Shown here piece after piece: positions 13,436-64,000 of a DNA stretch of 64,000 bases. Made by a program: the position numbers and the translations under genes. This DNA comes from Cymodocea nodosa (taxonomy: Eukaryota; Streptophyta; Magnoliopsida; Alismatales; Cymodoceaceae), in assembly GCA_036874045.1 (NCBI GenBank), contig CM072344.1, positions 12,620,501 to 12,684,500 of the forward strand, read 5' to 3'. The number at the start of each line of letters is the position of its first letter. Within the stretch, counting starts at the first letter, position 1. The notes beneath the pieces were generated by a model. The model saw only the letters and a list, made by a program, of their open reading frames with translations. It ran no database searches and was not told the DNA's origin.

Positions 13436-13482
13436 GTCTTGATTTTCATTCCTAATAACTGTTAATCCTGATTTCTTGGGAA

Positions 13483-15548: not shown

Positions 15549-15606
15549 ACAACACTCTGGCTATTAAAACGAAGCAGCTCTAACAGTTGCTTATATTAAT
15601 TCAATT

Positions 15607-15622
15607 CCTTGGCAACGGCACC
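15607..15622 (-). other. Athila 1 primer-binding site (tRNA-Asp)
   Basis: The minus strand reads TGGTGCCGTTGCCAAGG, a decayed complement of the tRNA-Asp 3' end (canonical TGGCGCCGTTGCCGGGG), 8 bases inside the LTR edge at 15631. Confidence 0.85.
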
Positions 15623-15630
15623 AAAAAACT

Positions 15631-22760: not shown

Positions 22761-23418
22761 ATTTACTGATTTTGGCTCTATTTTTGACATAAATGCACAA
22801 AAATTGCAAATATCTTGTGCTTTGCTTCTCGTTTGTACCCCTTTGGTTAAATTTCCAATTATTTGTTCCATTAGGTGATCAGATTTAAACTTCCAACTGT
22901 GTTGATTCTGATCTAAAGCTTGGGATTTGAGTTTATGCTTGCAATTTCCTTTCTCCAAATATTCATTTTCACTATCATTGTTAATCTTCAGATTTTTGAA
23001 ATTCTGTATCAAATCTTCATCAAATTAAACATTTATGCTTTCTTCTACTCTTCTGTCTTTAGCAACATATACTCTGTAAGCTTTACTTCTAGATGAGTAT
23101 CCAACAAGTATGGCAGATTCAGATTTTGCATCAAACTTGTCTTTAGCATTTTCAGTGTTTAATACAAAGCATTTGCAACCAAATGTCTTAAAGTAACCAA
23201 CATTTGGAGTCTTATCAAACCAGATTTCAAAAGGTGTCTTATTCATTATAGGTCTGATGTGAGTTCTGTTGGAAATATGACAAGCTATACCTACAGCTTC
23301 AACCTAGAGAAATTTTGGCAGATTAGTGGCATTTAACATAGTTCTAGCTATTTCTTGCAATGTCATATTCTTCCTTTCCACTACTCCATTTTGAGCTGGA
23401 ATTCTAGGGTAAGAGAAT
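22737..23418 (-). pseudogene. Copia-2 integrase C-terminal part and linker
   Basis: The open stretch 23246-23025 carries MNKTPFEIWFDKTPNVGYF and VGYSSRSKAYRVY, the standard Copia integrase C-terminal motifs. 23012-22737 is the variable linker before reverse transcriptase. Upstream to 23418 lies the core segment with NGVVERKN containing the catalytic Glu. A solo Athila LTR interrupts it at 23419. Confidence 0.85.
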
Positions 23419-40005: not shown

Positions 40006-40460
40006 GTTCAAGCGCAAGGAAGGCTTCGAGTGGTTAGCGGCCTTCGAGCAGTTAGTGGGCTTCAAGCGGTCGGTGAGCTTTGAGCGGTCGGCAGGCTTCG
40101 AGTGGTCGACGGCCTTTGAGCGGTCAGTGAGCTTTAAGCGATTGGTGGCCTTCGAGTGGTCGATGGCGAGCTTCGAGCGCAAGGCAGCCTTCGAGCATAA
40201 GGTGGCCTTCGAGCGGTCGGCGAGCTTCAAGTGGTTGGCGAGCTTTGAGCGGTCGGCGGGCTTTGAGCGATCAGTGGACTTTGAGTAGTCGACGGGCTTC
40301 GAGCGGTTGGCAAGCTTCGAGCAGTCGACTAGCTTCGAGCACAAGGCATGCTTTGAGTGGTCGGTGGGCTTCGAGCGATCGGTGGGCTTCGAGTAATCGG
40401 TGAGCTTTGAGTGGTCGACAAGCTTTGAGCAGTTAGTGAGCTTCAAGCAGTCCATGTGTT
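40006..40460. repeat. 18-bp GC-rich minisatellite inside Harbinger B
   Basis: About 25 imperfect copies of an 18-base unit close to GGCTTCGAGCGGTCGGTG occur in a row. Since 18 is a multiple of three, both strands stay open as six-residue repeats (minus strand: variants of DRSKPA; plus strand: variants of FERSVG). This explains the long ORFs at 39991-40473 and 40001-40288 without implying a protein. Confidence 0.92.
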
Positions 40461-40633
40461 CGAGCGTATGCAATTCCTTGATTTCGGAGGGGAGAGTCTT
40501 CGAAATTAGGGAAAATTTTTCCTTTTATATTTGGGAAAGTTAAAAAACTTTCCCAAGTTTCCAAATCTACACAAACTAGTTATATACTTTCTTTCCTTTC
40601 TTTAAAATCTTAGTATGCACAAACCCCCCTTAA

Positions 40634-41572: not shown

Positions 41573-42818
41573 TGTTAGGAATTTTGTTTTGATGATGAAT
41601 GTTTTATTAAAGTTTTTAAATAAGTCTAAATAATATTTTCTAAGTATAATAGTCACGTAATTAAATATTGACAAGTTATTGGAAAGTTTCATTTAATATT
41701 TCGGATAGTTAACTTTTAGATAGTTACAATTTTTGAATAGTTAAAGTTTTCGGATAGTTAGCATTTCACAGTTAAACTTTCGGATAGTTAACATTTCAAT
41801 TTAGTCAAAGAGTTATGTTAAAAACTCATATAGTTAAGTTATCTGCACGTGTGTTTTTAATGTTTTAAGTTGTCACATGTTTTCCATGTGCGTTCGATAA
41901 TAAAAAATCGAAGAGTTAGATAACTGTTCAAGTTTTTATACACATGGATAGATAACTGTTCGAGTTTTATAAAATAACTAATGAACATATAAGTTTTCTA
42001 TGTTCAGTCACGTGTTTTGCAGGTGCAAAAACTCGAAGAGTTACAAAATAAGTGTCCGAGTTTTTACAAGACTAAAGGATAAGTGTTCGATTAAAACGAA
42101 GGCTTAGAAGATATTTCACAAAACTCTAGGAAGATAAAGTTTCAGTGAATCTACGAGTGGAGATTGTGGAAATTCAAAATGATAGTGGAGAAAGTGGAAA
42201 TTTAAAAAGGTAGTAATTTGGATTAAAGAAAAAAATTAGTACGTGGATTATGGATTGTGGATTTAGTGGATGAACATACTGAATGTGAAGACAGAGTTCA
42301 ATTACTAATAGAGAGTACGAGCTACATTAAAAGAAAGAATCCTAATCTCAAAAACTAAGTCTGAATATTCAATCCAAATCCCTAACTAAAAAGCTAAGTT
42401 TGAATATTCATATTCAGAAAAATTCTCCAACATCAGAAGAAGTTCGAAATTCCAAGCAATTTCAGAAAAAGAGCTACAAACGTAAGAAGTCTGGAAATTC
42501 GACAATTAGAGAAGAAGAGATACAAAAGCTGAGCAAAAAGAAGGAAATGAGCTATGAGCATAAAGATCAGGTTTTATACAATTCGAAATTAGTTTTGAAT
42601 AAGGACTTCATTTTCTATTTGAATTGTATATCAGACATTACTGTATCAAAACCGTTAAGAAGGGAATTGAGTTGAAAAGATATTGTAAATTCTTTCTTTA
42701 AAGTTTATAAAGAACAGAATTTTATTTACAAGTGTTTTGTGCTCTTGTTTTATCTGTTGGTAATTTTAATTACTAAAGACATAATTCACCCTCCCTCTTG
42801 TGATACAACGATCCTACA
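41573..42818 (+). mobile_element. solo Sirevirus LTR in Copia-3
   Basis: This 1246-bp LTR (TGTTAGGAATTTTG...GATCCTACA) is flanked by a near-perfect 5-base duplication (AACGT 41568-41572, AACAT 42819-42823). It matches, in opposite orientation, the LTR of the Sirevirus at 47650-48860. Copia-3 protease sequence resumes straight after it. G-box CACGTG at 41846-41851; repeated CGGATAGTTA modules at 41700-41800. Confidence 0.93.
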
Positions 42819-43749: not shown

Positions 43750-45940
43750 TGTTTGGTTGCTTTAGGCGACACTAGAGAACTTGTTTGGTTCCTAGGCAAC
43801 AACACCAAATAACTTGTATTTGTTAACTTCTATTTTTAACTTGGTTAATTTGTCTTTATGCTTATATCAATAATTTCTTTTTAGAAGTAAACAAACAACC
43901 TTTCACACAAATTAGATATTAATTCCAATTTGTATTTTAACTACAAGTGCACAATATATATTATGTTTGTGTGCAAGTACAGGTTGATCCCATAGAGAAT
44001 TGAGTAAGAATTGTGTACTATTCTATTTTTTATATTATACTTAATGTGTTTAGTAATCACTCTGTTGAGTTACAGTTAACGCAACAGACTAAGTTCGTGG
44101 AGTTATGGCTAACTTAATGGACTAATCTCGTGGACTTAAGTTAACTCCACGAGCCTATCTTTCCAGTTTAATACTGCTATTTACAGAGGAATTCAGCCAA
44201 CTATTGGGCAGTTCCACAGATTGTAAATAACATCAATTAAGCTCTTTAATGCTAGTTAATATTAGATTTATCATTAAGCAACACTAACATTCAAATATTT
44301 CAAACAATAACCATTAGACTCTTTAAGTATCTGGAACAAATCGATTTCAGTAAATTGTAATACCATTTTCTATTTTCTGAATCAAACAAACATAAAACAT
44401 TCACAATACTGACAATGATAACTTTAATCACGATACAAAACAAACAATACAACACTTAAATATTAAATATAAACACAGATAAGTTGTTATTTTTGGTATT
44501 TTTGTTTTGAGATGTTCATGAAAATGGGTAAAAGGTGAAATGTAAAAATCTCTATCGACAGTAAATACTTCCGTCACTACATGCTACACGATTACACCAC
44601 TGAAAACTTAATCACTTACAATTCTGCCTCCTCTCCCTATAGAATCGCGAGTCCAGAATTGCAAGATGATCTCCTCTTCAACATACTGGCATCAGCCCGA
44701 AACCAAGGCTAGAAGCTTTACGATCTCTTGAGATATGAGTCGGTGCTTGGTGAAAATGACTTCCCTTCCTGCGACGCTATCACTCCTCATAGTGGTTGTC
44801 AGGCACCGTGTTTGGCTCGAAATCGACCCGACATCAGGAAAGTATCCTCACAGACCTCCGATGGTTGGTGATTATGGTAATGTTGGTGAATTGTTGGTGA
44901 TGGTGTGGATGATTCAGTGAACTTCCAACGCTACCTGTAGTTAGCGCGGTCCTCCACCTTTACACACATTGCCACACACCACCAACCACCCCTTCTTCAT
45001 TTTTTCTCCTCTTCTTTTATATTTCTTTAGTAGTAGCTACTTCTGCTTTAGATGATCAATTGGATTTCCTTCATTCAGATCAACAATGGTGATTTCTTCT
45101 CCCTTCCATGAATGAATTCCTACGTGATACATGCAATTGTCATTTTCCTTCGAATGTCTTGTTTCTATAACCACTATAGTGGCATGCTAGAAATTAAATG
45201 GTCCGTGGAGTTACAGATAATTCAACGAACTTACTTCGTTGATTTAACTATAAAACACGTGCAATAAAGAAATAAGCTGCTAACATAACACGTTACCTTA
45301 GTGTGTATTCATGTAACTCAACGCGTACAATTATGCTAACTTAACGAGTTAAACATGTGCATCTCATGTGATATACTAAAGCATTTAAATTCAACATGTG
45401 CATAATTCTAACTTAACAAGTTCAAATATTTTAGACACTTACAAACTTAACTATCTGATGCCCAGATGCATTTCAGATAGTTAACAGATAACTTACTAAA
45501 AATCCACTTAAGTCATGTATTATGGTTTCAACACGTGTACTTCAGGAAATAATAAAATATTCTTTAAAACATAACTGTCTAGTACATTAAACATAACTCT
45601 CCGAAATAATAGAAAATTCGGATACTTAAGAATTTCATAGCCTGCAATTTACTGACAGTTTAGAAATGTACTAAATTAACATTAATTCCCTGAAATTATG
45701 TAGATTCTTTCATTAAAGCATATAATAATGCAATTATAACATAATGGCTTAATTCTCATATGATAAGCTAAATATTATGCAGTTAACCATCATTTAACCG
45801 TTAATATTATACACTTTTTCATTCTAAACACTTCCCCCATACTTAAATTTTACTAGTCCCTTAGCAAACTAAGATCTAATTAGTTGGTCTTTCTAAAGTG
45901 CTAGAATTAATTCTTCACCTAGTTCTTATTCAAAATAATG
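43750..45940 (-). mobile_element. Athila element 2 (minus), 3' LTR and 3' end only
   Basis: The 3' LTR occupies 43750-45830, followed by 110 bases of internal 3' sequence with the polypurine tract (CTTCCCCCAT on the plus strand, 45831-45840), homologous to 61570-61680. The rest was displaced by the Copia inserted at 45941. Left flank CAAGA (43745-43749) is the expected duplication copy; its partner is not in the window. The LTR terminus holds two tandem primer-site-like units (from 43750 and 43782). Confidence 0.88.
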
Positions 45941-47649: not shown

Positions 47650-48860
47650 TGTAGGATCGTCTGTATCACAAGAGGGAGGGTGAATTGTGTCTTTAGTAAT
47701 TAAACTAGCAGATAAAACAAGAGCACAAAACACTCGTAAATGAAATTCTATTCTTTTATTTCAAGACAAAATTTACAATATCTTTTCACCTCAATTCCCT
47801 TGTTGATGGTTTTGATACAGTAATTTTTGATATATAATTCAAATAGGAAAACAAAGCTCTTTTTTAAAACTAATTTTGAATTGTATAAAACTTGATCTTT
47901 ATGCACACAGCTCTTTTCTTTCTCTTTGCTCAACTTCTGTATCTCTTCTTCTCCAGTTGTCGAATTTCCAGACTTCTTGCGTTTGCAACTCCTTTTCTAA
48001 AATTGCTTGGAATTTTGAACTTCTTCTGATGTTGGAGAACTTTTCAGAATATGAATATTCAAACTTAACTTTTCAGTTAGGGATCTGGATTGAATATTCA
48101 GACTTGGTTTTTGAGATTGGGATCCTTTATTGTAATGTAGCTCATACTCTCTATTTGTAGTCGAACTATGTTGTCTTTCACATTCAGCATGTTCATCCAC
48201 TTGATCCACAATCCATAATCCACGTACTAATTTTCTCTTTAATCCAAATTACTTTCTATTTAAATTTCCACTTTCTTCACTGACAATCTGAGTTTCCACG
48301 ATCTCCACTCGTAGATTCACTGAAATTTTATCTTCCTGGAGTCTTGTAGAATATCTTCTAAGTCTTCGATTTAGTAGAACATTTATCCTTTAACTCCTGT
48401 CAAAACTCGAACACTTATTCTTTAACTCTTTGAGTTCTTGCACCTGCAAAATACATGACTAAAAAAGGAAACTTATCTGTTCGTTAGTCTTTTTATAAAA
48501 CTCGAACAATTATCTATCCATGCGTATAAAAACTCGAATAGTTATCTAACTATTCGATTTTTCATTACCGAATGCACATGGAAAACACGTGACAACTTAA
48601 AACATTAAAACATACATGCGGATAACTTAACTATACGAGTTTTTAACATAAAGTATTCGACAAAAACGAAACGTTAACTATCCGAAAGTTTAACTATTGC
48701 AAATCTAGCTCTTCGGAAATCTTTAATTTATCCGACATAAAAATGAAACTTTCCGATATTCTGTTAACTATTATACTTAGAGAAATATACTTAGAGAATA
48801 TTATGTAGACTATTTAAATACGTTAATAAAGCATACATCATCAAAATTAAATACCTAACA
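47650..48860 (-). repeat. Sirevirus 3' LTR
   Basis: The 1211-bp LTR has edges TGTAGGATCG (47650) and ACCTAACA (48860), and matches 41573-42818 in opposite orientation. Confidence 0.92.
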
Positions 48861-49186
48861 ATCTCTCCCTTTTTGATGATGTCAAAACCTAATAAGTCAC
48901 ATAATTTATATCTCCCCCTTTTTGGCATTATAAAAAAGTAAACATACTATTTTCTCCCCCTTTAGGAAGTTAAGTTTTATAATTGTAAGGAAGGATATCT
49001 TACTAAGTATATATTAATCAAAACGATAGTGTCAACCATACATAGGATTTATGGATTAAGCAAAAACTGTTTAATATCATAAACTATGAAAAATAATCAC
49101 GTAACATTAAAATCAGTAAACATTTTACATAATGGTTTTGGTTACAAATTACAAAAAATAAATCATGTAATACATAATTTGTAAAA
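48861..49186 (-). other. Sirevirus 3' non-coding region with three polypurine tracts
   Basis: Minus-strand AAAGGGAGAGAT (at the LTR edge), AAAGGGGGAGATA (about 48912-48924) and AAAGGGGGAGAA (about 48953-48964) lie within 110 bases. The remainder is AT-rich without a gene. Confidence 0.8.
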
Positions 49187-50884
49187 TCATAAGCCTCTTT
49201 GTCTTCGAAAAATAGCAAACAGGGTATCTGAAATTTTCTTTGCAATATCTATACTAACTCTATTTATTTGATCAAGTAATGCCTGATCTAAATCATTTTG
49301 AGAAACTTGTGATGGTTGTTGTAAAAATTCAGTATGTGTGTCTGTATCTATACCTGTATGTATTTCTCTGTGTATACCTTGTTGTATATCTGTATGTTGC
49401 TGTGTTTCTGTAAATTCTGCAGATTGTTGTTGTGTTTGTCGAACTTGTTGTTGTTGTTGTCTGAGGATAGGTGTATCTACCGCTTGGTATTTTTGGAGTT
49501 CCTTTGCAGAGAAAGATCGTGACTTTAATCTTTTCTGTGGCCAAGGTGTAATATCTGTTTGACTTGCCACAATTCTCAAAATTGTATCACCATAAAATAA
49601 TTTACTCTGCAAATGTAAGATATGAGAAACAAAAATATCATATCAGTTCACCTGTATATGGTTGATTAATGCGTATGTAGCATAAAGACAACATCTACCA
49701 ACTTCTGCCCCATGACCAAACCTCTGAAACAATGTAGCATGCAATATTTTTGCAATAAAACGTGCTTGGCCATTTAAGTGATTTAGTAATGTCAATGGTT
49801 TGTTGGCAGTTGGATCTTTAGCTAAACTTGTAATGTCCCATCCCAATCGATAAACCTGTTTTCTTTCTGATAATTTAACTCCATTTTTCAGACCAAGTAC
49901 CTGATGAAGTAAATCTGGAGTTAAATATATGTAATTTTCTTGTATATTAGAAATAGGAATACCTTCTTCCACTGTTAAGTTCGAGTAAAAACAACTGAGA
50001 AGTTTGGGTATAGCAAGATGGCCTGGCTGTTGTGGAAGTAGAGTTAACAAGCCTTGAAATTCAAACAGTTCACGTATGTGTGCCATCCCTTAAAACTTAA
50101 CTGGTCTTGAATATAAAACTGTAAAAGTTTTATATGTCTGAAATTTGTCATAATAGGAATTATTTCTGAACCATAATAATGTATTTGCATCTAAACTCTG
50201 TTCAAGATTAGGTATTTTCCTGTCATGATGTTCTGATCTGGGACTTGTTTCAATATTATCAGCAACATCTATATTGTCAGATCTTTCAGAACTGGTGGAA
50301 TTTCTATCAAAACTAGTATAAATGTTTGGAATATTTGTTATTGTCGTATCAATAATCTGCTGAAGTTCTTCTGTTTGTTCTTCTAGAAACATTTCAGTAG
50401 CAACAGTCTTTGTAACAATCTGTATATCAGCAACCTGTATATCTATATGTGATCTATACAACTATCTCTGTATGAAAGAATGTTCTATATCTGTCTATGG
50501 AATAGGATAATCCTGTATTTCTGAAATTTGTATATGTGAGACATTGGTAGTATCATATTCTATTTGTAACTGTGTATGTTGTTGATTATATACATTTATC
50601 AACAAGTATACGATATATTGTAACATACATAACCATACATATAAAGTGTAGTATAAGCAACTGTACCAAAATTCAAAAGTCTCTGTTTGAGATACAGTAA
50701 GAGGAAGAATATCTATACATTCCTCTTCAGATGAAATATCTTCAAAATTCATAGACTCAGTGTCTATGTCATCAATAATATCATCAAATTTGATATCATC
50801 TATATATATATCATCAAAATTTCCTAAATTCTCATTTTCCGTAGGAAAAGAATGTGTGCTTGCAGCATTGTGTGAAAAACTATT
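49187..50884 (-). pseudogene. envelope-like / plant transposon-domain ORF, 3' part
   Basis: Read down from 50884: an acidic low-complexity stretch (FDDIYIDDIKFDDIIDDID), 50752-50495, 50461-50090, then 50086-49643 with a folded domain (LTLLPQQPGHLAIPKLLSCF, LTPDLLHQVLGLKNG, RFIAKILHATLFQRF), then 49612-49187 with a Gln/Thr-rich tail. The folded part resembles the putative plant transposon protein domain often annotated in plant retrotransposons after pol. Single stops, not large gaps, separate the pieces. Position just upstream of the polypurine tracts fits the third ORF of Sireviruses. Function is not established. Confidence 0.6.
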
Positions 50885-52681
50885 TGTTTAGAATGAAAAA
50901 GTGCATATTATTAACGGTTAAATGATGGTTAATTGCATAATATTTAGTTTATCATATGAGAATTAAGCCATTATGTTATAATTGCACTGCTATATGCTTT
51001 AATTGAAGAATCTGCTTAATTTTGGGGAATTAATGTTAATTTAGTACATTTATGAACTGTTGGTAAATTGCAGGTTGTGAAATTCTTAAGTATCCGAAAA
51101 TGCATCTGAGCATCGGATAGTTATACCTGTAACTCTCCGAAATGTTATTTTATGTTTAAACTACTGCTGACATGTGTCGAGATCTGGTAGATTTACTTAA
51201 GTTATAACTCGTTAAGTTAGCATAACTGTACGCATTGAGTTACATGAATATACACTAAGGTAACGCGTTAGGTTAGCGGCTTATTTCTTTATTGCATTTA
51301 TTTTATAGTTATTTTCCAAAATGCCACTGTAGCGGTTGCAGGAACAGATAGTTGGAAGGAAAAACCATGTTTGCACATATCACGCAGGAATTCAATCGCG
51401 CAAGGAGAAAGAAATCATCGTTGTTGATCTGAAGGAAGGAAATCCAACCGACCATTCAAGCAGAAGCAGTTATTACTAAAGAAATATAAAAGAAAAGAAG
51501 AAAAAAAGAAGAAGTGTGTGTGATCGATGGACGGCCAGTGTATACAGAGGAGGAGCACCGAGCTTTCTATAGACAGTATCAGTGATTCTCCGAAGTATCA
51601 CACTAACCATCGTTATCACCACCATAATCACCAATCACCGGAGGTCTATAAGGATACTTGCCTGATGTCGGGTCGATTCCGAGCCAAACACAGTGCTTGA
51701 CAACCACTGTGAGGAGTGATCGCGTCGCGGGAAGGGAAGACATTTTCACCAAGCGCCGATTCATATTTTAGGAGATCGTAAAGCTTTTAGCCTTGGCTTC
51801 GGGTTGATGCCTGTATGCTGAAGAGGAGATCATCTTGCAATTTTGGACTCGCGATTCTATAGGGTGAGGAGACAGAATTGTAAGTGGTTTAATTTTCAGT
51901 GGTGTAATTGCGTTGCAAGTAGTGTCGGAAGTATTTACTGTCAAGTGAGATTACTTTACATTTCACCTTTCGCCCATCACATCAAAACAAAAATACCAAA
52001 AACAATTTATCTTTGTTTGTATGTTGTATTTGAGTGTTGTATTGTTTGTGTTGTATCGTGATTAATGTTATCTGTATCAATTTTATGATTATTTTATGTT
52101 AGTTTTAATTTTACAGTTTACTGCAATTGGTTCGTACAAAAAACTTAAAGATTTTAATGGTGACTGTTTGAATCATTTGAATGTTAGTATTGCTTAATGA
52201 TAAATCCAATGTTAACTAGCATTAAAAGGCTTAATTGATGTTATTTACAATCTGTGGAATCGCCCAATGGTTGGCCGAATTCCTTTGTAAATAGCAGTTT
52301 TATAAAGAAGAGACACGCTTGTGGAGTTAACTTAAGTCCACGAGGATAGTCCGTTGAGTTAGTTATAACTCAATGAATTTAGTCCGTTGAGTTAACTGTA
52401 ACTCAACAGAGTACTTATTGAATATAAATTTGAATTGTTCACAATCAAAGATTTCTTAAATTCGTCAGCAATTCCCTGTGGGATCGACTTGTACTTGCAC
52501 ACTGATATAATAGACACTGTGCACTTGCAGTTAAAGTACAAATTGGAATTAATATCTAAATTTTATTAAAGGTTGTTTGTTTACTTCTAAAAGAAAGAAT
52601 AGGCATAAAGATAAATTAACTAGTAAAAACAGAAGTAACAAATCCAAGTTTTTCTAGTATAGTGCTGGGAAAACCCAAACA
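50885..52681 (+). repeat. Athila 3 5' LTR
   Basis: The 1797-bp LTR (TGTTTAGAATG...CCAAACA) has a U3 with TAACTCTCCGAAA and GTTAGCATAACTG modules, a TATA box at 51485, a GC-rich core (51620-51800) and U5 palindromes (52330-52410). Differences from the 3' LTR are scattered single bases. Confidence 0.95.
51485..51492 (+). promoter_or_regulatory. LTR TATA box
   Basis: TATAAAAG is followed by a purine-rich tract. The same element occurs in the 3' LTR (62281-62288) and in other Athila LTRs. It would place the transcript start near 51515, giving a U3 of roughly 630 bases. Confidence 0.65.
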
Positions 52682-52688
52682 AGTTTTA

Positions 52689-52706
52689 TGGCGCCGTTAC
52701 CGGGGA
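52689..52706 (+). other. Athila 3 primer-binding site (tRNA-Asp)
   Basis: TGGCGCCGTTACCGGGGA differs at one base from the complement of the tRNA-Asp 3' end and lies 7 bases after the LTR end. Confidence 0.93.
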
Positions 52707-52742
52707 ATTGAATTGAATTGAGTCGAAGTGAATTGAATTGAA

Positions 52743-53687
52743 TTGAATAGATATAAGCAATTGTTAGAGCTGTTTCATTTTAATAGTCAGAGTTGTGTGT
52801 TTTCTTCTGTAATTGAGAATATGGCATATGCTTATGCTCAAAGATTTCTGAAACCTTTAATTAGCATACGTGAATTCTGCAATTCTGAAGGACACGACAT
52901 TTCTGATTGTTTGAAATTGAGACATTTACTGATTGTTAGATCCCATGAACAACAAATGAATTATCCTAAATATAATAGAGCCGAGTATGAGAATCCTATA
53001 GTTTACCCAACTGATGGTCAGTATAGAATGTGTAATATGATGAGAGACACTGATGTTTGGGATAGCTATGACAGACTAGAGCATAGTATAGAGTAAAATC
53101 TAGACAAACTGGAATACTTTGTGTGTCAACAACAAGAAGTCAACCGGTTAAACTCTAAGGAGGCATATTCAGAACCTAAACAGGATATAATTTACGAATC
53201 TGAAAAAGCCATAAAGAAAATTGATCAAAAATTCAATGCAATGAAATTAGATGATCTGGAACCAAAATTAAAAGCATTAGACAAAAATGCAATGAAAATA
53301 CAAGTTTTGCAACAGGACAATGAAAATTATAATGTTATAAACCAGCACAACTTGCAAAATATACAACAAACAGAAAACACTAATGTAAGAGAATTTAAAG
53401 AATGCACTTTAAAACTAAAAACAATTGAAGATCATAATCACGAAAATGATATACAAAAACATCATGAAAGTAATGAAAATCTAGAAGATGTATGTGTAAC
53501 ATTAAGATCTGGAACTGATATACCACCAAGAACTCAAAATGAAAATGATATGAAGGTGGACAAGAGTAAAAATCAAAATGATAATGAAAATGTAATAGCT
53601 GAAAATCTAGAAATCACTGAAGAATAATCTGAATCTGCAATTGAACCTAAAAATGATCAAACAAATCAACTGAAAGAAAAAGAGTCT
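52743..53687 (+). pseudogene. Athila 3 gag, short form
   Basis: The first open frame (52743-53096) begins about 40 bases after the primer site and reaches a zinc knuckle (CNSEGHDISDC; the first Cys pair is damaged, REFC for CEFC) within about 60 residues, so no capsid-sized domain precedes it. It continues past a TAA at 53094 (53121-53627) with a long charged helical region, then a TAA at 53625-53627. Both stops are explicable as CAA to TAA. Same organisation as Athila 1 gag (15548-14641). Confidence 0.8.
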
Positions 53688-54710
53688 TTGAAATCAAAAT
53701 CTTTAGCACCCTATCTTGAAAGATTACAACAAACAATTCCTGAAAAACAAGAAAAAATCAGAGAAATTTTTGAAAAAGTACAAGTTAGCATTCCTTTGTT
53801 AGATCTATTACAGAATATGCCACCTTGTGCTAAATTTCTGAAGGATTGGTGTATTAAGAAAAGAGAGCGAAAAGTTCTTAGAAAGGTCTTTTTAGCTGAG
53901 CAAAGTAGTTCCCTATTTCTGCCACAAATTCCTAAAAAGTTATCTGATCCTGGAATCCCTGTTATATCATGCACCATAGGAAATACCATTCTAGAAAGAA
54001 CCTTAATAGACTTAGGTGCAGGTATAAATGTTATGCCAAGTGATATATTTGCATCCATAGGATTAGAAGGCTTAACTCCTACTAGTACGGTTATTCAATT
54101 AGCTGATAGAAGTATAATATACCCTAGAGGAAAAATAAAGGATGTCTTAATTAAAATCAAGAATTTTATATATCCTATTGATATTGTAATTTTGGATTCC
54201 CAACAAATTAAGCATAAAAATAGTGATACATCTTTAATTTTGGGAAGGCAATTTTTAGCAACATCAGGGGCTGTTAAAAATTGTAAAACTGGAGTAATGA
54301 AGTTAACATATGGTAATGAGGATACTCAATTAAATATTTTCAAATCAGAAAGGTTTGAGGAGTTAGAAATGTCCTTACATACCATAGACTTTTTAGAGGA
54401 TGAAGGAGATATGTTAGATGATGTGATTCAAGAAGAATTAAATAAGCAAATCAATTCTGAAACTTTAGAAGAAAGTGAAAGCATAAATATAGAAGGAGAT
54501 CAGGAAGAAATTAATTTAAAAAATGATGATGTTCAATTAGGAGCTCTAGCTTCTGATGGGCAGCATTTAGAATTAAAACCTTTACCTCCTGAATTAACCT
54601 ATATATTTTTGGAAGATAAACGAACTTGTCCAATCACTATTGATTCAGATTTAAAAGAGGATCAAATAGCTAAATTAAAAGATGTAGTAAAAGTTATAAA
54701 GAAGCAATAG
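53688..54710 (+). pseudogene. Athila 3 aspartic protease and acidic linker
   Basis: The open frame holds a basic lead segment, then the retropepsin active site ERTLIDLGAGINVMPSDIFA (catalytic Asp in DLGA), VIQLADRSIIYPRGKIKDV and SLILGRQFLATSGAV, followed by an acidic linker rich in Glu/Asn and LASDGQHLELKPLPPELTY. A one-base insertion near 54690 shifts the frame just before RT. Confidence 0.88.
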
Positions 54711-56224
54711 GATAGACTATGACTGATATAAAAGGGTTAAGTTCAACTTTATGCTGTCACCATATATATTTAGAAGAGAATGCTAAACCTGTTAGAATTC
54801 CTGAGAGGAGATTAAATCCAAACCTTAAAGAATTAGTCAGGAAGGAAATAGTTAAATGGTTAGATAATGATATAATTTATCAGATTTTTGATAGCTCGTG
54901 GGTTAGTCCAATCCATGTAGTTCCTAAGAAATCAGTATTAGTAGTTATTAGGAATGAAAGTCAAGACTTGATACCTATTAGAATTCAATCAGGCTGGAGA
55001 GTATGTATAGACTATAGAAAACTGAATGCTGTGACTAGGAAAGATCATTTTCCCTTACCTTTTATAGATCAAATGCTGGAAAGATTAACAAGGCAAGAAT
55101 ATTTTTGTTTCCTAGACGGGTTTTCAGGGTATAATCAAATTCCAGTAGCATTAGAGGATCAAGAGAAAACAACTTTCACTTGTCCTAATGGAACTTATGC
55201 TTTTAAAAGAATGCCATTCGGATTATGCAATGCACCAGATACCTTTCAAAGGTGTGTGCAGGGCATATTTACTGGAATGACTGAAGAATTTTTAGAAATA
55301 TTTATGGATGATTTTACTGTATATGGCAACTCATATGAAGTGTGTTTAAGCAATTTAGACCAAATATTAAAACGTTGTGTGGAAAAAAATCTAGTTTTAA
55401 ATTGGGAAAAATGTCACTTCATGGTTAAACAAGGAATAGTCTTAGGACATGTTTCTAAAAAAGGGTTGGAAGTAGATAAAGCTAAAATAGAAGTAATTTC
55501 TAATCTACCAGAACCTAAATCAGTAAAAGATATTAGATCATTTCTAGGACATGCTGGTTTTTATAGAAGATTTATTAAAGACTTTAGCAAGATAGCTAGA
55601 CCTTTAACTAATCTATTAAAAGATGTTCCATTTAACTTTGATAAAAATTGCAAGGAAGTATTTTTCAGACTTAAGACTAGCTTAATTTCAACTCCTATAA
55701 TTCAAGCACCTAATTGGAATCATCCATTTGAATTAATGTGCGATGCTTCTAATTTTGCTGTAGGAGCAATGTTAGGACAGAAGATAGAAAAATCTCCTAG
55801 AGTAATTCATTATGCAAGCAAAACCTTAAATGATGCTCAAGTTAATTACACAACTACTGAAAAAGAATTATTAGCTGTTGTGTTTGCTTTAGAAAAGTTT
55901 AGATCATATCTGATTGGAGCTAAAGTAATAGTATACACGTATCATTCAGCTCTAAAACATCTAATAAAGAAAAAAGAAATTAAACCTAGATTGATCTGAT
56001 GGATATTATTATTGCAAGAATTTGATTTAGAAATTAAAGATAAAAAAGGTTGTGAGAATGTAGTAGCAGATCATTTATCAAGATTACAAATAGAAAAATC
56101 AAATATTGAAATTAAAGATAATTTTCTTGATGAACAATTAATGACCATCAACACAATGCCTTGGTATGAAGACATAGTTAATTACTTAGTTACTAGTTTA
56201 ACACCTAAGGATTGGAATAGATAG
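54711..56224 (+). pseudogene. Athila 3 reverse transcriptase and RNase H
   Basis: 54719-55999 is one open frame: CIDYRKLNAVTRKDHFPLPF, FCFLDGFSGYNQIPVAL (catalytic Asp), FGLCNAPDTFQRCVQGIFTG, FMDDF (catalytic pair), [29 protein letters not shown], then RNase H with LMCDASNFAVGAMLGQ and [21 protein letters not shown] at 55997-55999, from an Arg codon in the homologue, separates it from 56012-56224 ([20 protein letters not shown], the RNase H end). The domain is almost full length; lesions are point changes. Confidence 0.94.
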
Positions 56225-57166
56225 GATAAGAAATTGTTTTTCTCAAGAGTAAAATATTACTATTGGGAAGACCCTTACTTATTTAAGAAATGTCCTGATC
56301 TGGTTTTAAGGAGGTGTGTTCCAGAATCTGAATATTCGAGCATATTGTCTTTCTGTCATGACCAAGCTTGTGGAGGATATTTTGATTCAGGGAAAACTAC
56401 TGCAAAAATTCTGCAATGTAGGTTTTATTGGCTAACACTATTCAAAGATGCTCATAAATATTGCTTAAGTTGTTTAAGATGTCAACAAATAGGACGAATA
56501 TCAAAGAGGAATATGATGCCTCTTAATCCTATTGTTGAGGTTGAAATCTTTGATGTGTGGGGAATAGATTTTATGGGTCCATTTCCTATGTCTAATCAAT
56601 TTAATTACATATTGTTGGGGGTGGATTATGTATCTAAATGGATAGAAGCTATTTCTACAAAAACTAATGATAACAAAGTGGTAATACAATTTATAAGAAC
56701 AAATATATTTGCCAGATTTGGAATACCTAAAGCTATTATCAGTGATAGAGGAACTCATTTCTGTAATAGAAGTTTTGAAGCCTTAATGAAGAAATATGGA
56801 GTAAACCAAAAAATTGAATTAGAAGAATTTAGAAATGAAGCTTATTCGAAGACTGTAAGAGAAAAAGAGAAAATTAAATTCTAGCATGATAGAAAAATTA
56901 TTCCTAAAAGCTTTGAAATAGGACAAGAAGTATATCTTTATCTGGCTAGACTCCATAACCATCTAGGAAAATTAAGATCTAGATGGGCAGGACCTTACAT
57001 AGTTCGAAATGTTTATCCTTATGGAGCTATTGAAATTGAAAATCCTAAAAATCAGAATATATTTATAGTAAATGGACAAAGACTTAAACCTATTCTGAAA
57101 ACACCAAAAAGCTCCTTTGGAATTATAGAAGAAGTCAGAGTAGAGGACTACTCGAGCTTTACTTAA
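56225..57166 (+). pseudogene. Athila 3 integrase with internal deletion
   Basis: 56234-56884 encodes the zinc finger (CHDQAC...CLSCLRCQ) and half of the catalytic core: [11 protein letters not shown] (first Asp) and [16 protein letters not shown] (second Asp). Right after YGVNQKI it jumps to LEEFRNEAYSK, the C-terminal domain. Compared with Athila 1 (11596 to 11299) about 297 bases, 99 codons, are missing, with an ATTG microhomology at the join. The deletion removes the third catalytic position. A TAG at 56882 replaces Trp, then translation continues through RLHNHLGKLRSRWAGPYIV to the stop at 57164-57166. Confidence 0.9.
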
Positions 57167-57249
57167 TAAGAAATCAGTTTTTATATTTATATATATATGT
57201 TTATTTTAAATAATAATAAAAACATTAAAAATATATATATATATAAAAC

Positions 57250-57620
57250 ATAAAAATAGTTGCGGTTCAACCGACTGGATCCATCGGTATGACCAGAAAA
57301 TTAAATAAATATTTAGGTCTGATCGAAGCATAGTATCGGTTAAATCGGAAAAAAAAATTGTATATTAATTTTCAGAAAAAATATTGGTTTTACTGAAACA
57401 TAGTATCGGTTCAACCGAAAGAAAAATAAAAAAATAAAAAATATTTAGGTTTGACCGAAGCGTAGTATCGGTTAAACCGAAAAAAAAATTGTATATTAAT
57501 TTTCTAAAAAAATATTGGTTTTACCGAAACATAGTATCGGTTTAAGCGAAAGAAAAATAAAAAAATAAAAAATATTTTGGTCTGACCGAAGCATAGTATT
57601 GGTTAAACCTGTAAAAAAAT
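57250..57620 (+). repeat. ~130-bp tandem repeats with CGGTT/ACCGAA modules
   Basis: About two and a half imperfect copies of a ~130-base unit follow pol, each containing ACCGAAGCATAGTATCGGTT or a close variant and TTGTATATTAATTTTC. Equivalent modules follow pol in the other Athila copies. Confidence 0.75.
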
Positions 57621-57659
57621 AGAAAAACTATTCTCTGTAATATTTTTATTATTATAATT

Positions 57660-58445
57660 GCTTGTACGGGGAGTCCGTTGAGTTACGCTTAACTCAACGA
57701 GCTGACTCCGTTGAGTCTTGAGTTAGTCAACGAGCTTATTCCGTTGAGTTAACTGTAACTCAACGGAGTACTGTAGCTAAAATCTAAAATTAGAAAAACT
57801 CCAGAAGTAAGTAGATGAATTTTGGCATAGAGATTAAATTGTATTGTTCGTCTAATTGTGTAAAATTGTATGAAATTGTATGATGTACTTGTAATGTAAT
57901 TGATTCATATTAATGAATATAATTTTTCGGATGCAATTTTCATACGTATTTGGATGTGAAATGAATGGAATTTATTGAATATTATGTAATTTGTGGAACT
58001 TTATGAATATGTAACAGATTTACAATTTACTGAATGACAGGATAACTGCTTAAAAATTTCTGCATGTTATAAGGTAAAATGTAAATTCTACATAACATAA
58101 AATAACCTGCAAGTTAAATCTTTATATAATGTTCAGATTTAAATATATTTTAATCAAAATGAGGCATTAATGACATAGATTTAACTTTATTACAGTTAGC
58201 AGAATGACAAAGAAAAAAAAAACAGAATAGAAAACTTACGAGAGTGAAACTTAGAAGTTGCCAAGTGTTAACTCAACGAAGTAAGTTTGTTGAGTTAACC
58301 GTAACTCCACGAGGTTAGTAATATAATATAAGGTCACTCCGTTGAGTTATCTGTAACTCAACGAAGTTAGTCCATGGAGTTAGCAACAGTAACCGACTGT
58401 GTTCTATTGAGTAATCTGTAACTCAATGAGGTTAGTTCGTGGATT
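57660..58445 (+). repeat. GTTGAGTTA/TAACTCAAC palindrome clusters in the internal region
   Basis: Palindromes include a perfect one with 12-base arms (TCCGTTGAGTTA) and a 4-base centre at 57740-57767. Further imperfect copies lie at 57671-57720 and 58265-58440. The 57820-58200 interval between them is AT-rich. The same palindrome occurs in the U5 of Athila LTRs. Confidence 0.8.
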
Positions 58446-58576
58446 AAGCAGAATAGTTATTCTTTTAACCACAAATGAAGCTTCGTCGGTTTAGCGGTTA
58501 CCAAAATTTGAAATTAGTAGTGGTACACGTACCCATAAAAAGTGGAACCACGATGCACGTTGCAAGACACGTTCTT

Positions 58577-58617
58577 CCAATGAGATTTATTCACTTTATG
58601 GATGCGTAGTATATATA
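58577..58617 (+). promoter_or_regulatory. candidate promoter of the F-box gene (CCAAT and TATA boxes)
   Basis: CCAAT at 58577-58581 and TATATATA at 58610-58617 lie 150-120 bases upstream of the F-box ATG. A purine-rich presumed leader (58660-58700) follows. It suggests the captured segment includes its own core promoter. Confidence 0.5.
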
Positions 58618-58734
58618 TGAAACAAAATGTTATTTACGAGTTACCAACACTTTTAAAAGAAAGGAGAAAGCATTGGAGGAACTGGAAGGAGAAGCAGCTG
58701 ATTCAACATTCATCCGACAACAAATATTTATAGA

Positions 58735-59902
58735 ATGGAAAGCTTCAGACTGAATCGACAAATGGAATTAATGCAATTACCGTTGGATGCGCTAAGGGAA
58801 ATACTAAGTAACTTGTCAGCTAAAGATCTGTGCAGGCTGTGTTGTGTATCAAAGGAAATTAAAGACTGTATTGAAGAAAAATATTTTCAGCGACTACAAG
58901 CTGCAAAAAATGACTAAGAATAGAGATGGATTCATATGGAGGTCATTTAATCGTAGTTCAAATACCCATGAATATCTGGCTATGGAAGAAACTACTGGAA
59001 TTCCACCCAATGCATTAGAAGGAATGAGTCATATTATGGGGATAGATGAAGGATTAATCATATACAAGACGAGACCAAGGTATGCAAGTTTATCATTACC
59101 TGATATTTTGATAAGAAATCCTATAACAGGAGAAGAATGAAATATAGGAAGACCTAATATATTTGAAGCACCAACTGAAAATTGTGGGTCAGCTTTAATA
59201 TTTTCTGATAAAAATTCTGCAATTCCTAAAAAATTATATTATTGGAGACCTACATGAAATTGTGGTGAAGATTTACGCTTAAGTGTGTATAATTTTCTGA
59301 ACAGATCTTGGAATGAAAACATTATGATATATCTAGGACAGAAATCATTAATTAACCAAACACATGTCATACTTGATGGATATATCTATTTAGTCACGGA
59401 GATATCATTAGCATATGGATCTGATTTATACATAGTGAGCATAAACAGTTATGATGATTATATAGAAATTTTACCTGTACCAAGTGAAATAGCTAAACCA
59501 CCATCTACAAAATTTAATGAAATTCAAATAGGAATGTGGTATAATGAAGAAGATGATCCTACTTTATATCTGATAAGATGGTGGGATGAACTGATAAAAT
59601 TTCAAATATGGATTATGGAAGACATGAATGAATGGAAGTGGGAAGAGGAGTATATTGAAATAGATGTAAAAATAGAAATTGCTACATTACCTTGGAACCA
59701 AAAAGGATCCCTTTCTGCATTACATATCATTAATGGTAATACACTCGTATTTGGAATTTATAATATATTGCATGTTTACAAATTAAAAAGGAACAAGAAC
59801 TACATTAAAACAGAATTAATAGCAAGAAGAACTATGTCAAAAAGGTTTGCTTGGACTGATACATTTATTCCATTTGTTTCTACTTTTAAATCATGTTCTT
59901 AA
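58735..59902 (+). pseudogene. captured F-box / F-box-associated-domain protein gene
   Basis: F-box proteins are substrate receptors of SCF ubiquitin ligases. The ATG at 58735 opens a typical F-box: LPLDALREILSNLSAKDLCR, then LCCVSKEIKDCIEEKYF (residues ~15-50). After a one-base frameshift in an A run near 58906, the protein continues with a diverged F-box-associated region: GFIWRSFN, SLPDILIRNPITGEE, NFLNRSWNENIM, HVILDGYIYLVTEIS, YLIRWWDELIKFQIWIMEDM and SALHIINGNTLVFGIYN, ending at 59900-59902. Two TGA codons (59138-59140, 59256-59258) stand where Trp (TGG) is likely. Restored, it would be near 390 residues, a normal size. It lies between pol and the 3' LTR in the sense direction, where Athila elements usually have an envelope-like ORF. 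No intron is seen. Confidence 0.82.
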
Positions 59903-61680
59903 GTTGTGATTTTGTGTGTTTAATGTTGTGTATTCTGCATTTATTTTTAGAAAGAAAAAAAAGAAGAAGGAATTTTGAAGTTTTTCATGTTCATTTTATA
60001 AAAAAAAAAAACAAATAAAACAAAATATCTATCCAGTTTGTTGGTATCTGTTCTGGGAAACCAACTAGCTTGCTTGTGAGCCACCAAAGGCATAGGAGCC
60101 TAGGTTCCACACAAGACACTAATTTATTAATATCTGTTAAATGTTATTTTGTTTTATATTCTGTGTTTATCTAGGAATGAAAAGTTTTTCAGAATCAAAA
60201 ATCGAAATATGCAGAAAGAGATACAAATGGAACAAGGTATGTAACCAATTACTTATCCTGAATTTTAAATCAAACAAAACTTTATTCATGCCTGCTACAA
60301 TTACTGTACTTATTGTCAAATCTTTTACATTGAGGACAATGCAAAATGTAGGTATGGGGGGGAGGTAATTAAAGTAACAGCCATGTAAGTTTGTTAATTA
60401 AAGGAATTAAAATGGTACTGCAAAGTTTTGAGGAAATTGAAAATTTTTATGAACTTGCTATAACTATCCGATAATTGAGACTATAAAATTTTTATAAACT
60501 GCTTGAATGTTATATTTAGAAGGCTATAGAAGATGCTATAGAATTTATTATTTATGTAAATCTAGATATAGTATCTTATGATTTTTCTGAATTTCATGAG
60601 TTTAACAGTTTCACGATTTTAAAATGAAATCAGAATATTTAATGCTTAATCAGAAAATTATCTGAAGTCCTGTAGGAGCTGAGATGTGAATTCTAGATTA
60701 AATGAAACACATATGATGAAAGATACATTTACTTTGACTGATTGAACTTGTAGAATGATTTATGTGTAGATCTTATTAAACTACAGATAAAGTATGAGCT
60801 TATTGTTATGGATTCATATTTTTAGTAAATGATAGAAGCATGATTATATGAGATTGGTGTTTTACTGCATCTGTATTAATGAAATACATGCATATACAGT
60901 ATGTGATTAATGCTTTGTTTTGTGTGTGCATTTATTTTTAGAAAAAAAAAAGAAAAAAAAAAGAAAAAAAACTTTTAGAGTTTATTGACTTGTTTGATCA
61001 TGAGCCTTTTGTACTTGAGCAGATAGGTATGTAAGGATTGTTGACCTGAAAAAGGACTCTGAAAATCTGGCAACCTAAGATCCTGATCAGATCTGGGATT
61101 GTTGACTGAAAGCTCGTTAGATGGGTACATTAGAAAACTCTTGTATGATTCAAGCTTGTCGAATTAACTTTTAAAGTACACAAAAAAGAAAGAAAAAAAA
61201 AACATATACTGTTCTGAAAAGATACAAGTGTTTTGTGAAATACTGATATCTTATCAATCGAGTATATTTTCTATTATCAAGAATTGTTGAAATATGAATC
61301 TGGAATTGACTTTTGAAGTTGTTTAATGGAAATACAATTCTTTATTCTACTTGTCTTAATCAGATTGAATTGGATTGTACTTTGATTCGTATGTTGTTGA
61401 AATTTCTTCTAGAAAACTTATTGGAAAATTCAGGATAACAGATGATGAAAAGAAGAACAAACGATAATATAATTAACACCTATATGAAGATGATATACTT
61501 TGTATGTAATTTACATATATTCTAAATATCTTTGCAGGTTGATTACTGAAACATATAAGTTTTCTGAACAGAAGAAAAGAAAAAACAAAAGGTGAAGAAT
61601 TAATTCTAGCACTTTTTGAAAGACCAATTAATTAGATCTTAGTTTGCTAAGGGACTAGCAAAATTTAGGTACGGGGGAAG
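59903..61680 (+). other. Athila 3 3' non-coding region
   Basis: No gene was found. At about 60325-60370 is the motif ACATTGAGGACAATG followed by GGTATGGGGGGGAGG, which in Athila elements normally sits at the polypurine tract next to the 3' LTR; here it is 1.3 kb away. Poly-A/AAG tracts lie at 59950-60015 and 60945-60975. The segment 61570-61680 is conserved with Athila 2 and ends in the true polypurine tract GGTACGGGGGAAG at 61668-61680. Confidence 0.75.
61668..61680 (+). other. Athila 3 polypurine tract
   Basis: GGTACGGGGGAAG directly abuts the 3' LTR start and is the likely plus-strand primer. Confidence 0.9.
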
Positions 61681-63478
61681 TGTTTAGAATGAAAAAGTGC
61701 ATATTATTAACAGTTAAATGATGGTTAATTGCATAATATTTAGCTTATCATATGAGAATTAAGCCATTATGTTATAATTGCACTATTATATGCTTTAATT
61801 GAAGAATCTGCTTAATTTTGGGGAATTAATGTTAATTTAGGACATTTATGAACTGTCGGTAAAGTGCAGGCTATGAAATTCTTAAGTATCCGAAAATGCA
61901 TCTGAGCATTAGATAGTTATACCTGTAACTCTCCGAAATGTTATTTTATGTTTAAATTGCTACTGACACGTGTCGAGATCTGGTAGATTTACTTAAGTTA
62001 TAACTCGTTAAGTTAGCATAACTGTATGCGTTGAGTTACATGAATATACACTAAGGTAACGCGTTAGGTTAGCGGCTTCTTTCTTTATTGCATGTATTTT
62101 ATAGTTATTTTCCAAAATGCCACTATAGCGGTTGTAGGAACAGACAGTTGAAAGGAAAAACCACGTTTGCACGTATCACGCAGGAATTCAATCACGCAGG
62201 GAGAAAGAAATCATCGCTGTTGATCTGAAGGAAGGAAATCCAACCGACCATTCAAGAAGAAACAATTACTACTAAAGAAATATAAAAGAAAAGAAGAAAA
62301 AAAGAAGAAGTGTGTGTGATCGATGGACGACCAATGTATACAGAGGAGGAGCACCAAGCTTTTTGCAGACAGTATCGGCGATTCTCCGAAGTATCACACC
62401 AACCATCGTTATCACCACCATAATCACTAATCATCGAAGGTCTGTGAGGATACTTGCCTGATGTCGGGTCGATTCCGAGCCAAACACAGTGCCTGACAAC
62501 CATTGTGAGGAGTGATCGCGTCGTGGGAATGGAAGACATTTTCACCAAGCGCCGACTCATATTTCAGGAGATCGTAAAGCTTTTAGCCTTGGCTTCAGGT
62601 TGATGCCTGTATGCTGAAGAGGAGATCATATTGCAATTTTGGACTCACGATTCTATAGGGAGAGGAGACAGAATTGTAAGTGGTTTAATTTTCAGTAGTG
62701 TAATCCCGTTGCAAGTAGTGTCGGAAGTATTTACTGTCAAGTGAGATTACTTTACATTTCACCTTTCGCCCATCACATCAAAACAAAAATACCAAAAACA
62801 ATTTATCTTTGTTTGTATGTTGTATTTGAGTGTTGTATTGTTTGTGTTGTATCGTGATTAATGTTATCTGTATCAATTTTATGATTGTTTTATGTTAGTT
62901 TTAATTTTACAGTTTACTACAATTTGTTCGTACAAAAAACTTAAAGATTTTAATGGTGACTGTTTGAATCATGTGAATGTTAGTATTGCTTAATGATAAA
63001 TCCAATGTTAACTAGCATTAAAAAGCTTAATTGATGTTATTTACAATCTGTGGAATCGCCCAATGGTTGGCCGAATTCCTCTGTAAATAGTAGTATTATA
63101 AAGAAGAGACAGGCTCGTGGAGTTAACTTAAGTCCACGAGGATAGTCCGTTGAGTTAGCTATAATTCAACGAACTTAGTCCGTTGAGTTAACTATAACTC
63201 AACAGAGTGCTTATTGAATATAAATTTGAATTGTTCACAATCAAACATTTCTTAAATTCGTCAGCAATTCCCTGTGGGATCGACCTGTACTTACACACTG
63301 ATACAATAGACACTGTGCACTCGCAGTTAAAGTACAAATTGGAATTAATATCTAAATTGTATTAAAGGTTGTTTGTTTACTTCTAAAAGAAAGAATAGGC
63401 ATAAAGATAAATTAACTAAGTAAAAACAGAAGTAACAAATCCAAGTTTTTCTAGTGTAGTGCTGGGAAAACCTAAACA
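61681..63478 (+). repeat. Athila 3 3' LTR
   Basis: The 1798-bp LTR (TGTTTAGAATG...CCTAAACA) is near-identical to the 5' LTR. The antisense ORF (62560-62252) is open. Confidence 0.95.
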
Positions 63479-64000
63479 CTATCCATTGTATTAAAAGATA
63501 CATTATGCACTAATGTGACACAATACCTTAGAGTATATGCTTGTAAGCCAATATTTGTCACATCTGCTGGGATTCCTAACAAAAATGTTTGTCCAGCTTC
63601 TGCAATGGAGCATAGTTTTCCATTTTTCACTGATTCTTCTTTTTGCTGCAATATTCCTTGTACACTTGCAGTTAGTCCAAAATATTCAATTGTCTTTTTC
63701 TTTTTTCGACTATATGTCTGCAGTGTTTCAGGTTGTTTAGGAGGTTCTAAAATTGTCTTAATTTCTCCTATTAAAGGCACCTGTTGTCTTGATGGTCCTT
63801 CACCATGATGCCTAGGTGGTAATAATGGAATATAGAGTTTTAAGCTCTCCACCTCTGCCATTTTGAGTTGATAAACTCTTTGTCCTTCACTTTGAAGGCC
63901 CATTTTGCTAATGGCAGTTCTCTGTTCATTGATATACTGTTTAATATCATCTAAAATAGCTGGGGGAAAATAATGTTGGGAATACAAGGATTGTAATTCC
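63479..64000 (-). pseudogene. Sirevirus late ORF, 5' part (split by Athila 3)
   Basis: The frame is open from the window edge down to the Athila insertion at 63479. The protein is unrecognised: SQHYFPPAILDDIKQYINEQ near the start, a Pro/Gln-rich middle (GEGPSRQQVPLIGEI, ILEPPKQPETLQ), a basic RKKKKT stretch, and a hydrophobic C-terminal part. By position it is joined to 50884-49187 on the other side of the insertion. No stops in 170 codons make it the best preserved long ORF of this Sirevirus in the window. Confidence 0.6.

Follow-up and report, generated by a model that had tools for sequence, protein, structure and literature searches.

An Athila-like LTR retrotransposon family of Cymodocea nodosa carries a two-exon F-box gene between its integrase and its 3′ LTR, and this gene occurs in very many copies that belong to several subfamilies and are in part still open. 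The family was encountered in a window of 64,000 nucleotides (contig CM072344.1 of assembly GCA_036874045.1), this window being the whole stretch of DNA that was analyzed, and positions given without a locus name refer to it. The best explanation that we can offer has several parts. The F-box segment of the window would be a decayed copy of an accessory gene of the family, and the gene itself would be maintained, spliced, and would encode an SCF adaptor with a host target of the restriction type. We hold this explanation, the identity of the window segment included, to be rather probable as a whole. Because the gene is found in many copies with the same surroundings and with low dN/dS between subfamilies, it looks like a maintained accessory gene and not a one-off transduction.

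The Athila-like element of the window is 12.6 kb long and spans 50885-63478, with the F-box gene sitting between the integrase and the 3′ LTR (Table 1). The initial annotation was right to place the F-box in sense between pol and the 3′ LTR, as the order is protease, reverse transcriptase-RNase H, integrase, F-box, and 3′ LTR. The borders that it proposed hold as well. The LTRs are 95.3% identical (K80 distance 0.048), the target-site duplications agree at 4/5 bases, and the two flanks, when joined, match one unbroken stretch of locus L049 (88% over 507 bases with 2 gap letters). Since this last match is independent of the LTR ends, we conclude that the element borders are right. At two commonly used rates, the LTR divergence would date the insertion to ~1.9 to 3.4 million years ago. 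The element has the pol order protease-reverse transcriptase-RNase H-integrase between LTRs with TG..CA ends and a 5-bp target-site duplication by which Athila/OTA elements are recognized. By Pfam, no chromodomain follows the integrase (window 56885-57166; 56225-56884 gave only integrase domains and one insignificant match), no second (archaeal-type) RNase H is among the matches of the frames scanned, where broken frames leave gaps, and Athila ORF-1 (PF03078) is absent from the frames scanned. The putative gag part upstream of the protease gave no significant match and no capsid domain in the Pfam scan. The primer-binding-site-like word has what we take to be a resemblance to the 3′ end of tRNA-Asp, and the window integrase falls ~290 bp short of that in L009 and similar copies.

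Related sequences are found around the element, which lies within part of a related opposite-strand element (47650-50883, - strand, and 63474-63599). The surrounding stretch is also present 5′ of the F-box gene in L049 (L049:943-4277, 85-92% alike), with the insertion site uninterrupted. A second related element on the - strand (10087-17722) has, at ~89-95% identity, the C-terminal part of gag, protease, reverse transcriptase, RNase H, and integrase; the F-box had no match in it. More LTR pieces of the same family, possibly solo LTRs, are located at 18062-19322, 23418-25272, and 43778-45830 (- strand). The window further contains inverted repeats of ~850 bp (41855-42702 vs 47759-48610, in pieces, 79-89% complementary, 5 kb apart), a tandem array with an 18-base period (40007-40490), and a 131-base tandem duplication (57343-57604). 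An 85-base stretch with the palindromic words TCCGTTGAGTTA / TAACTCAACG is common to the LTRs and the leader (52331-52415, 57688-57772, and 63127-63211), and similar words are also present close to the end of the intron described below.

Table 1. Features of the F-box-bearing element, in positions of the window
Feature	Position	Strand	Evidence
Target-site duplication, left copy (CTATT)	50880..50884	no strand	
5′ LTR, 1797 bp, TGTTTAG...CCAAACA ends	50885..52681	+	
Primer-binding-site-like word TGGCGCCGTTACCGGGGA	52689..52706	+	sequence
Putative C-terminal gag part (probable)	52737..53627	+	position and motifs
Protease region	53628..54710	+	Asp_protease_2 E 0.0015, under curated cut-off
Reverse transcriptase and RNase H	54716..55999	+	PF00078 E 2.8e-30; PF17919 E 6.3e-30
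Integrase, stop within frame	56225..57166	+	PF17921, PF00665
Leader-like non-coding stretch 5′ of F-box gene	57167..58734	+	
CCAAT (58577-58581) and TATA-like stretch (58610-58618)	58577..58618	+	alignment
F-box gene exon 1 (MESFRL)	58735..58752	+	
Exon-exon junction; elsewhere GT-AG intron of ~1.55 kb with gag	58752..58753	+	
F-box gene exon 2; in the window one frameshift, TGA at 59138-59140 and 59255-59257	58753..59902	+	
F-box domain	58771..58887	+	Pfam
Non-coding 3′ stretch common to copies; purine-rich word inside at ~60350-60365	59903..61680	+	
Polypurine tract (acgggggaag) just 5′ of 3′ LTR	61671..61680	+	
3′ LTR, 1798 bp	61681..63478	+	
Target-site duplication, right copy (CTATC)	63479..63483	no strand	

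The frame that opens at 58735 encodes an F-box at residues 13-51 (PF00646, 45.4 bits against a curated cut-off of 20.5, E 5.8e-12), which also matches PF12937 (E 5.2e-8), and PF00646 is matched by all nine aligned copies of the gene. A chance F-box was considered and rejected on the basis of these E-values, the agreement of the copies, and the copy number. The initial annotation had described 58735..59902 as an ORF opening with an F-box. The F-box is real, but the segment is not one open frame, as a frameshift soon after the F-box and two in-frame TGA codons break it. The same annotation overlooked the exact loss of an intron between 58752 and 58753.

The genome searched comprises 374.6 Mb. 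A DNA search with 58640-59920 returned 40 scored places at 96-100% identity, the best of at least 5712 unscored candidates. When the open frame of L005 served as protein query, 30/107 scored matches had no in-frame stop and 77/107 had stops, these 107 being the best-scoring of at least 7012 candidates and so skewed towards intact copies. From these searches, L002-L008 came from a query carrying the spliced junction (two of them, L002 and L003, are identical with copies L010 and L012), and L009-L028 were picked from the 107 protein matches as stop-free. A further 20 F-box loci (L029-L048) were hand-picked from 150 scored profile matches in the genome, favoring top scores and long frames, and L049 and L050 are longer pieces of copies L044 and L046. 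The initial annotation had suggested looking for other copies with an F-box between pol and the LTR, and such copies exist: of 20 ten-kilobase loci selected because their frames are open, all but L021, L025, and L026 (17 loci) have the F-box, the 3′ stretch, and the 3′ LTR in register. Nineteen of the 20 F-box profile matches are also copies of the element gene, with 58-91% amino-acid identity over the aligned part. Eighteen of these divergent copies have the intron sequence upstream and the nineteenth (L045) has the leader, and the 3′ non-coding stretch lies downstream in 16 (not L031, L034, or L038). The twentieth, L032, turned out to be a normal F-box/kelch gene of the host, and the single match between it and the element protein (E 5.8) is no better than chance.

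These observations support the F-box gene as a regular part of the element that spread with it. The segment is not confined to the window between insertion duplications of its own; it recurs in very many copies with the same surroundings, and the profile search confirms its similarity to F-box proteins. Two other arrangements were considered and rejected. Secondary insertion of an F-box gene into one element does not agree with both flanks being common to the copies, and a scenario of multiple independent LTR families, all with F-boxes of their own, does not agree with the 19 divergent matches being subfamilies of one gene with the same intron or leader upstream.

The gene has a GT-AG intron that holds gag, between an exon 1 of 18 nt and an exon 2 of 1.15 kb. 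In 15 of the 20 ten-kilobase loci, it is split as ATGGAAAGCTTCAGACTG followed by GTATGTAAT... ~1.55 kb ...TTACAG and then AATCGACAAATGG, with small differences among copies. No donor was found in L017 and L018, and some introns are shortened (such as those of L019 and L027). The donor GT is present in 15/15 donors found, in a search whose pattern included GT (two of these 15 are L049 and L050), and the acceptor AG is kept in 28 of the 32 intron-bearing copies in which the acceptor was located, with losses in L015, L029, L037, and L043. In L034, the acceptor was not found. Among the 45 distinct retrieved copies, 33 bear the intron and 12 are spliced, a proportion that is not a fair ratio given that seven loci come from the query with the spliced junction, which over-represents the spliced form among L002-L008. 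The spliced copies are the window, L004-L010, L012, L014, L023, and L045, and the exact junction is present in all 12. A genome search for the spliced junction (26 bases, 3 mismatches allowed at most) gave 208 matches, and the reversed control gave 0. The spliced form is found in copies that bear pol (the window and L009), in a copy that bears a second extra ORF (L014), and in a copy that lacks pol (L010). Since the intron is gone exactly, and in several structural backgrounds, the element RNA was spliced at this junction and then reverse-transcribed. On a tree of 42 copies, the spliced state needs at least nine changes, four of them forced by well-supported branches, and a single clade of spliced copies is rejected (AU p 0.00016); many forks among young copies are weak. 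Because the spliced copies do not form one clade, spliced element RNA was probably reverse-transcribed repeatedly; the alternative is template switching between packaged RNAs, a recombination that could have shuffled the two forms and could also scatter the spliced form on the tree.

The intron stretch carries Retrotrans_gag (PF03732, E 6.6e-9 in L015 and 5e-6 in L013) and runs on to a motif that we take to be typical of Athila gag. Of the 15 introns inspected, two of which are shortened, not one has a gag frame that is open over its whole length. The dN/dS of gag is 0.36 and 0.52 against two old copies (wrong frames, a noisy control, 0.53-1.23), and between close copies the true frame gives 0.41-0.75 and the wrong frames 0.34-0.98, which makes the latter a poor neutral standard. 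The short pol-less copies L015, L019, and L027 consist of LTR, leader, exon 1, intron with gag, F-box, 3′ stretch, and LTR, and L010 is their spliced counterpart. In these four copies, ~40-70 bases separate the 5′ LTR from the beginning of the leader, and in the short pol-less copies the stretch 57167-58734 adjoins the 5′ LTR region from its base 54 onward. This position makes the leader look like the element's own. The CCAAT/TATA pair noted in the initial annotation is present, and its TATA-like stretch is kept in 27/27 alignable rows (the window and 26 loci). The host promoter read from this pair is not supported in that wording, since the TATA-like stretch and exon 1 belong to a leader that is common with the gag gene of the intron.

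Some copies have further sequence. In L050 and L014, the integrase is followed in succession by 2.3 kb containing a second extra ORF, by the leader, and by the F-box gene. This second sense ORF stretch (L050:1643-3972 and L014:1120-3457) is whole or partial in L004, L016, L017, L020, L025, and L028 and absent from the window element, and its ORF in L014 has a weak match to PF20167 (E 0.0015, under the cut-off). In L018, a reversed integrase lies beside the F-box copy (L018:897-2121, F-box strand orientation), pointing to rearranged or nested elements.

Nei-Gojobori dN/dS (omega) was 0.23-0.84 in the 45 pairs of ten open-frame copies, with high values between close copies. In 15 of these pairs, mostly deep, omega was 0.23-0.53, and neutral simulations with the substitution spectrum of the adjoining non-coding DNA (300 per pair) had means of 0.84-0.99. 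None of the 300 simulations was as low in 10 of the 15 pairs, and 1-4 were in each of the remaining five. The dN/dS comparison that the initial annotation had suggested thus gives 0.23-0.53 between subfamilies vs ~0.9 under neutrality. Had the gene been captured once and then merely copied as a passive passenger, its open frames would reflect recent copying and not use, and the 77/107 broken copies, along with the broken copy of the window, fit such a history; by rough arithmetic (simulation stop rate, end branches of median 0.018), the 30/107 stop-free matches are also close to what neutral decay after insertion would leave. However, the frames compared are stop-free across subfamilies that are 7-15% apart (L043 shifts frame close to its end), where neutral simulations average 5.6-11 stops and 0/300 were stop-free in every pair. 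The stop count alone is biased because the open-frame copies were selected for being open, and the low omega of the deep pairs is a separate argument against a passenger. Ten old broken copies with 2-7 in-frame stops each likewise have a median omega of 0.38 (range 0.26-0.57), in 42 pairs with dS >0.15 that are non-independent and have no matching simulation. In old copies, the coding part is also less diverged than its non-coding neighbor (e.g., 85.9% vs 78.5% in L044). We consider passive copying unlikely.

Shifting the codon frame was tried as a control and set aside as a poor neutral standard, with omega of 0.44-0.59 for a shift by one and 0.49-0.97 for a shift by two, and with the +1 frame at or below the true frame in 2/15 pairs. 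Because shifted frames also give low omega, the case for selection is persuasive only through the simulation and in the deepest pairs. Constraint is not confined to the F-box, since the codons after it give omega of 0.28-0.45 on their own (16 pairs with dS >0.24). Taken from these substitution patterns, the evidence supports purifying selection as having kept the F-box gene working in the lineages that spread.

What the protein does is approached through its domains. The F-box is the only recognizable one, and the C-terminal 330 residues have none. The initial annotation had proposed an F-box-associated-like region here; no profile of a substrate-binding C-terminus is significant among the nine copies, with FBA_1 in 2/9 (best E 0.054) and FBA_3 in 2/9 (best E 2.6). 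A protein of the envelope position that retains an F-box fold and has a role in particle assembly or movement, instead of in a ubiquitin ligase, would suit the place of the gene, which is that of the extra or envelope-like ORF of Athila elements, and the splice trace, which resembles that of envelope-like ORFs. Such a structural role seems quite unlikely to us, as the F-box is the sole recognizable domain in 9/9 copies and the intact L005 protein has no membrane-like segment (maximal 19-residue hydropathy 1.10), which argues against an envelope.

The origin of the gene was also pursued by searches. No protein relatives were found among 5.8 billion proteins with either a single sequence or a nine-copy profile, by a method that needs shared five-residue words, and the control L032 gave 559 relatives in the same database. 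The best relatives of L032 are from Colocasia (69%), Zostera (67%), and Aristolochia and Magnolia (67-70%), in line with a plant genome. No relatives with solved structures were found for the element F-box protein. The transduced host gene of the initial annotation finds no backing, as protein and genome searches gave no recognizable parent, the genome listing being of best-scoring places among which element copies would hide a parent. Host exaptation, in which the plant uses some of the copies as normal F-box genes and it is these that are under selection, draws on the quick turnover of F-box genes in plants. It also draws on Thlaspi arvense, where an LTR element is reported to contain a gene of the F-box family (PMC8764390, in part), but it is very unlikely here, because the selection signal runs through the element subfamilies, the copies keep the leader or intron and mostly the 3′ stretch, and no stand-alone copy is among the 20 retrieved F-box matches, a small sample.

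Several known systems can be compared with this element. OTA elements have a 5-bp target duplication, non-chromovirus pol, long non-coding regions, and extra ORFs (PMC6317226, in part), and elements of the Athila lineage have an extra ORF between pol and the 3′ LTR (PMC7264820, in part). The present family is like the Athila lineage (Ty3/gypsy OTA superclade; Athila4, Bagy-2, and Cyclops) in its target-site duplication, pol type, and extra-ORF position. It differs in that an F-box ORF replaces the envelope-like ORF or Athila ORF-1 and in that the capsid part of gag lies downstream of pol, within the intron of the F-box gene. Splicing in plant LTR elements has been described for Bagy-2, with a spliced envelope-like sense ORF between pol and the 3′ LTR (PMC7264820, in part), and for Ogre, with a putative intron between Gag and Pol (PMC9289625, in part). 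Unlike in those elements, gag here lies within the intron and the genome contains integrated copies of the spliced form, and the splicing is known from these genomic traces only, which are exact intron-less copies. Orchid Gypsy elements keep a 2-ODD/AlkB RNA demethylase ORF over several subfamilies (PMC9289625, in part) and so offer another LTR family with an added domain kept across subfamilies, although with a different domain and element size.

In a survey of 121 angiosperm genomes, the main-text section on added domains names PMD, G-patch, AIR1, DUF1409, YgdH, L26, B3, ArgoL2, and 2-ODD, with no F-box among them (PMC9289625). Extra ORFs between pol and the 3′ LTR, spliced envelope-like ORFs, and added domains are all known in plant LTR elements (PMC7264820, PMC6317226, PMC9289625, PMC11963269, PMC13317346, and PMC3726574), and the word F-box is absent from the main texts of these six papers. 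Among the matches listed from the open-licence literature, no title or abstract beginning describes an F-box ORF as a standing component of LTR retrotransposons, and the closest precedent is the single F-box family gene of the Thlaspi arvense element cited above.

Returning to the maintained and spliced adaptor, we can outline how it might work. Splicing would act as a switch, with unspliced RNA giving gag and spliced RNA giving the F-box protein. As its domain predicts, this protein would dock on SKP1 and form an SCF ubiquitin ligase, with the C-terminal 330 residues choosing the target. The target may be a host protein that limits the element, and the RNA-silencing or RNA-directed methylation machinery would be the first candidate; this is the least certain step. 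Lentiviral Vif and Vpx recruit cullin ligases, and retroviruses make env and accessory proteins from one transcript by splicing. VANC proteins are DNA-binding proteins of DNA transposons and not ubiquitin-ligase adaptors, unlike the element protein, which is a predicted adaptor of this kind. They are nevertheless anti-silencing proteins encoded by transposons, the VANDALs (PMC10398659 and PMC5735166, in part), and as such are comparable to the candidate counter-defence role here. Among plant viruses, polerovirus P0 and nanovirus Clink are F-box proteins that interact with the SCF machinery, P0 destabilizing ARGONAUTE1 and Clink acting against retinoblastoma proteins (PMC3588083, in part). The likeness of the element protein to them is that of an F-box protein encoded by a parasite, and is by domain, with no sequence kinship claimed. 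A silencing or restriction factor is placed first among candidates because of these viral F-box proteins, the transposon anti-silencing proteins, and Vif and Vpx; the silencing machinery as the target is a lead drawn from analogy. The more specific claim, that an element adaptor made by splicing over gag destroys a host silencing or restriction factor, has been kept by an arms race, and partly explains the copy number, is a tentative one that we regard as rather doubtful.

The extra ORFs of plant LTR retrotransposons are common and mostly without a known domain, and their use is a live question. The F-box ORF of this family brings together a domain from which a clear biochemical activity can be predicted (SKP1 docking), selection, and a built-in record of splicing in the form of intron-less integrated copies. 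Two questions thereby become testable: do retrotransposons turn the ubiquitin system against host defence, and do plant elements, like retroviruses, use splicing to regulate gag relative to an accessory gene? If the more specific claim above is true, the plant retrotransposon would have in this adaptor its own equivalent of polerovirus P0 or lentiviral Vif, and the element may steer the protein disposal of its host to its own benefit.
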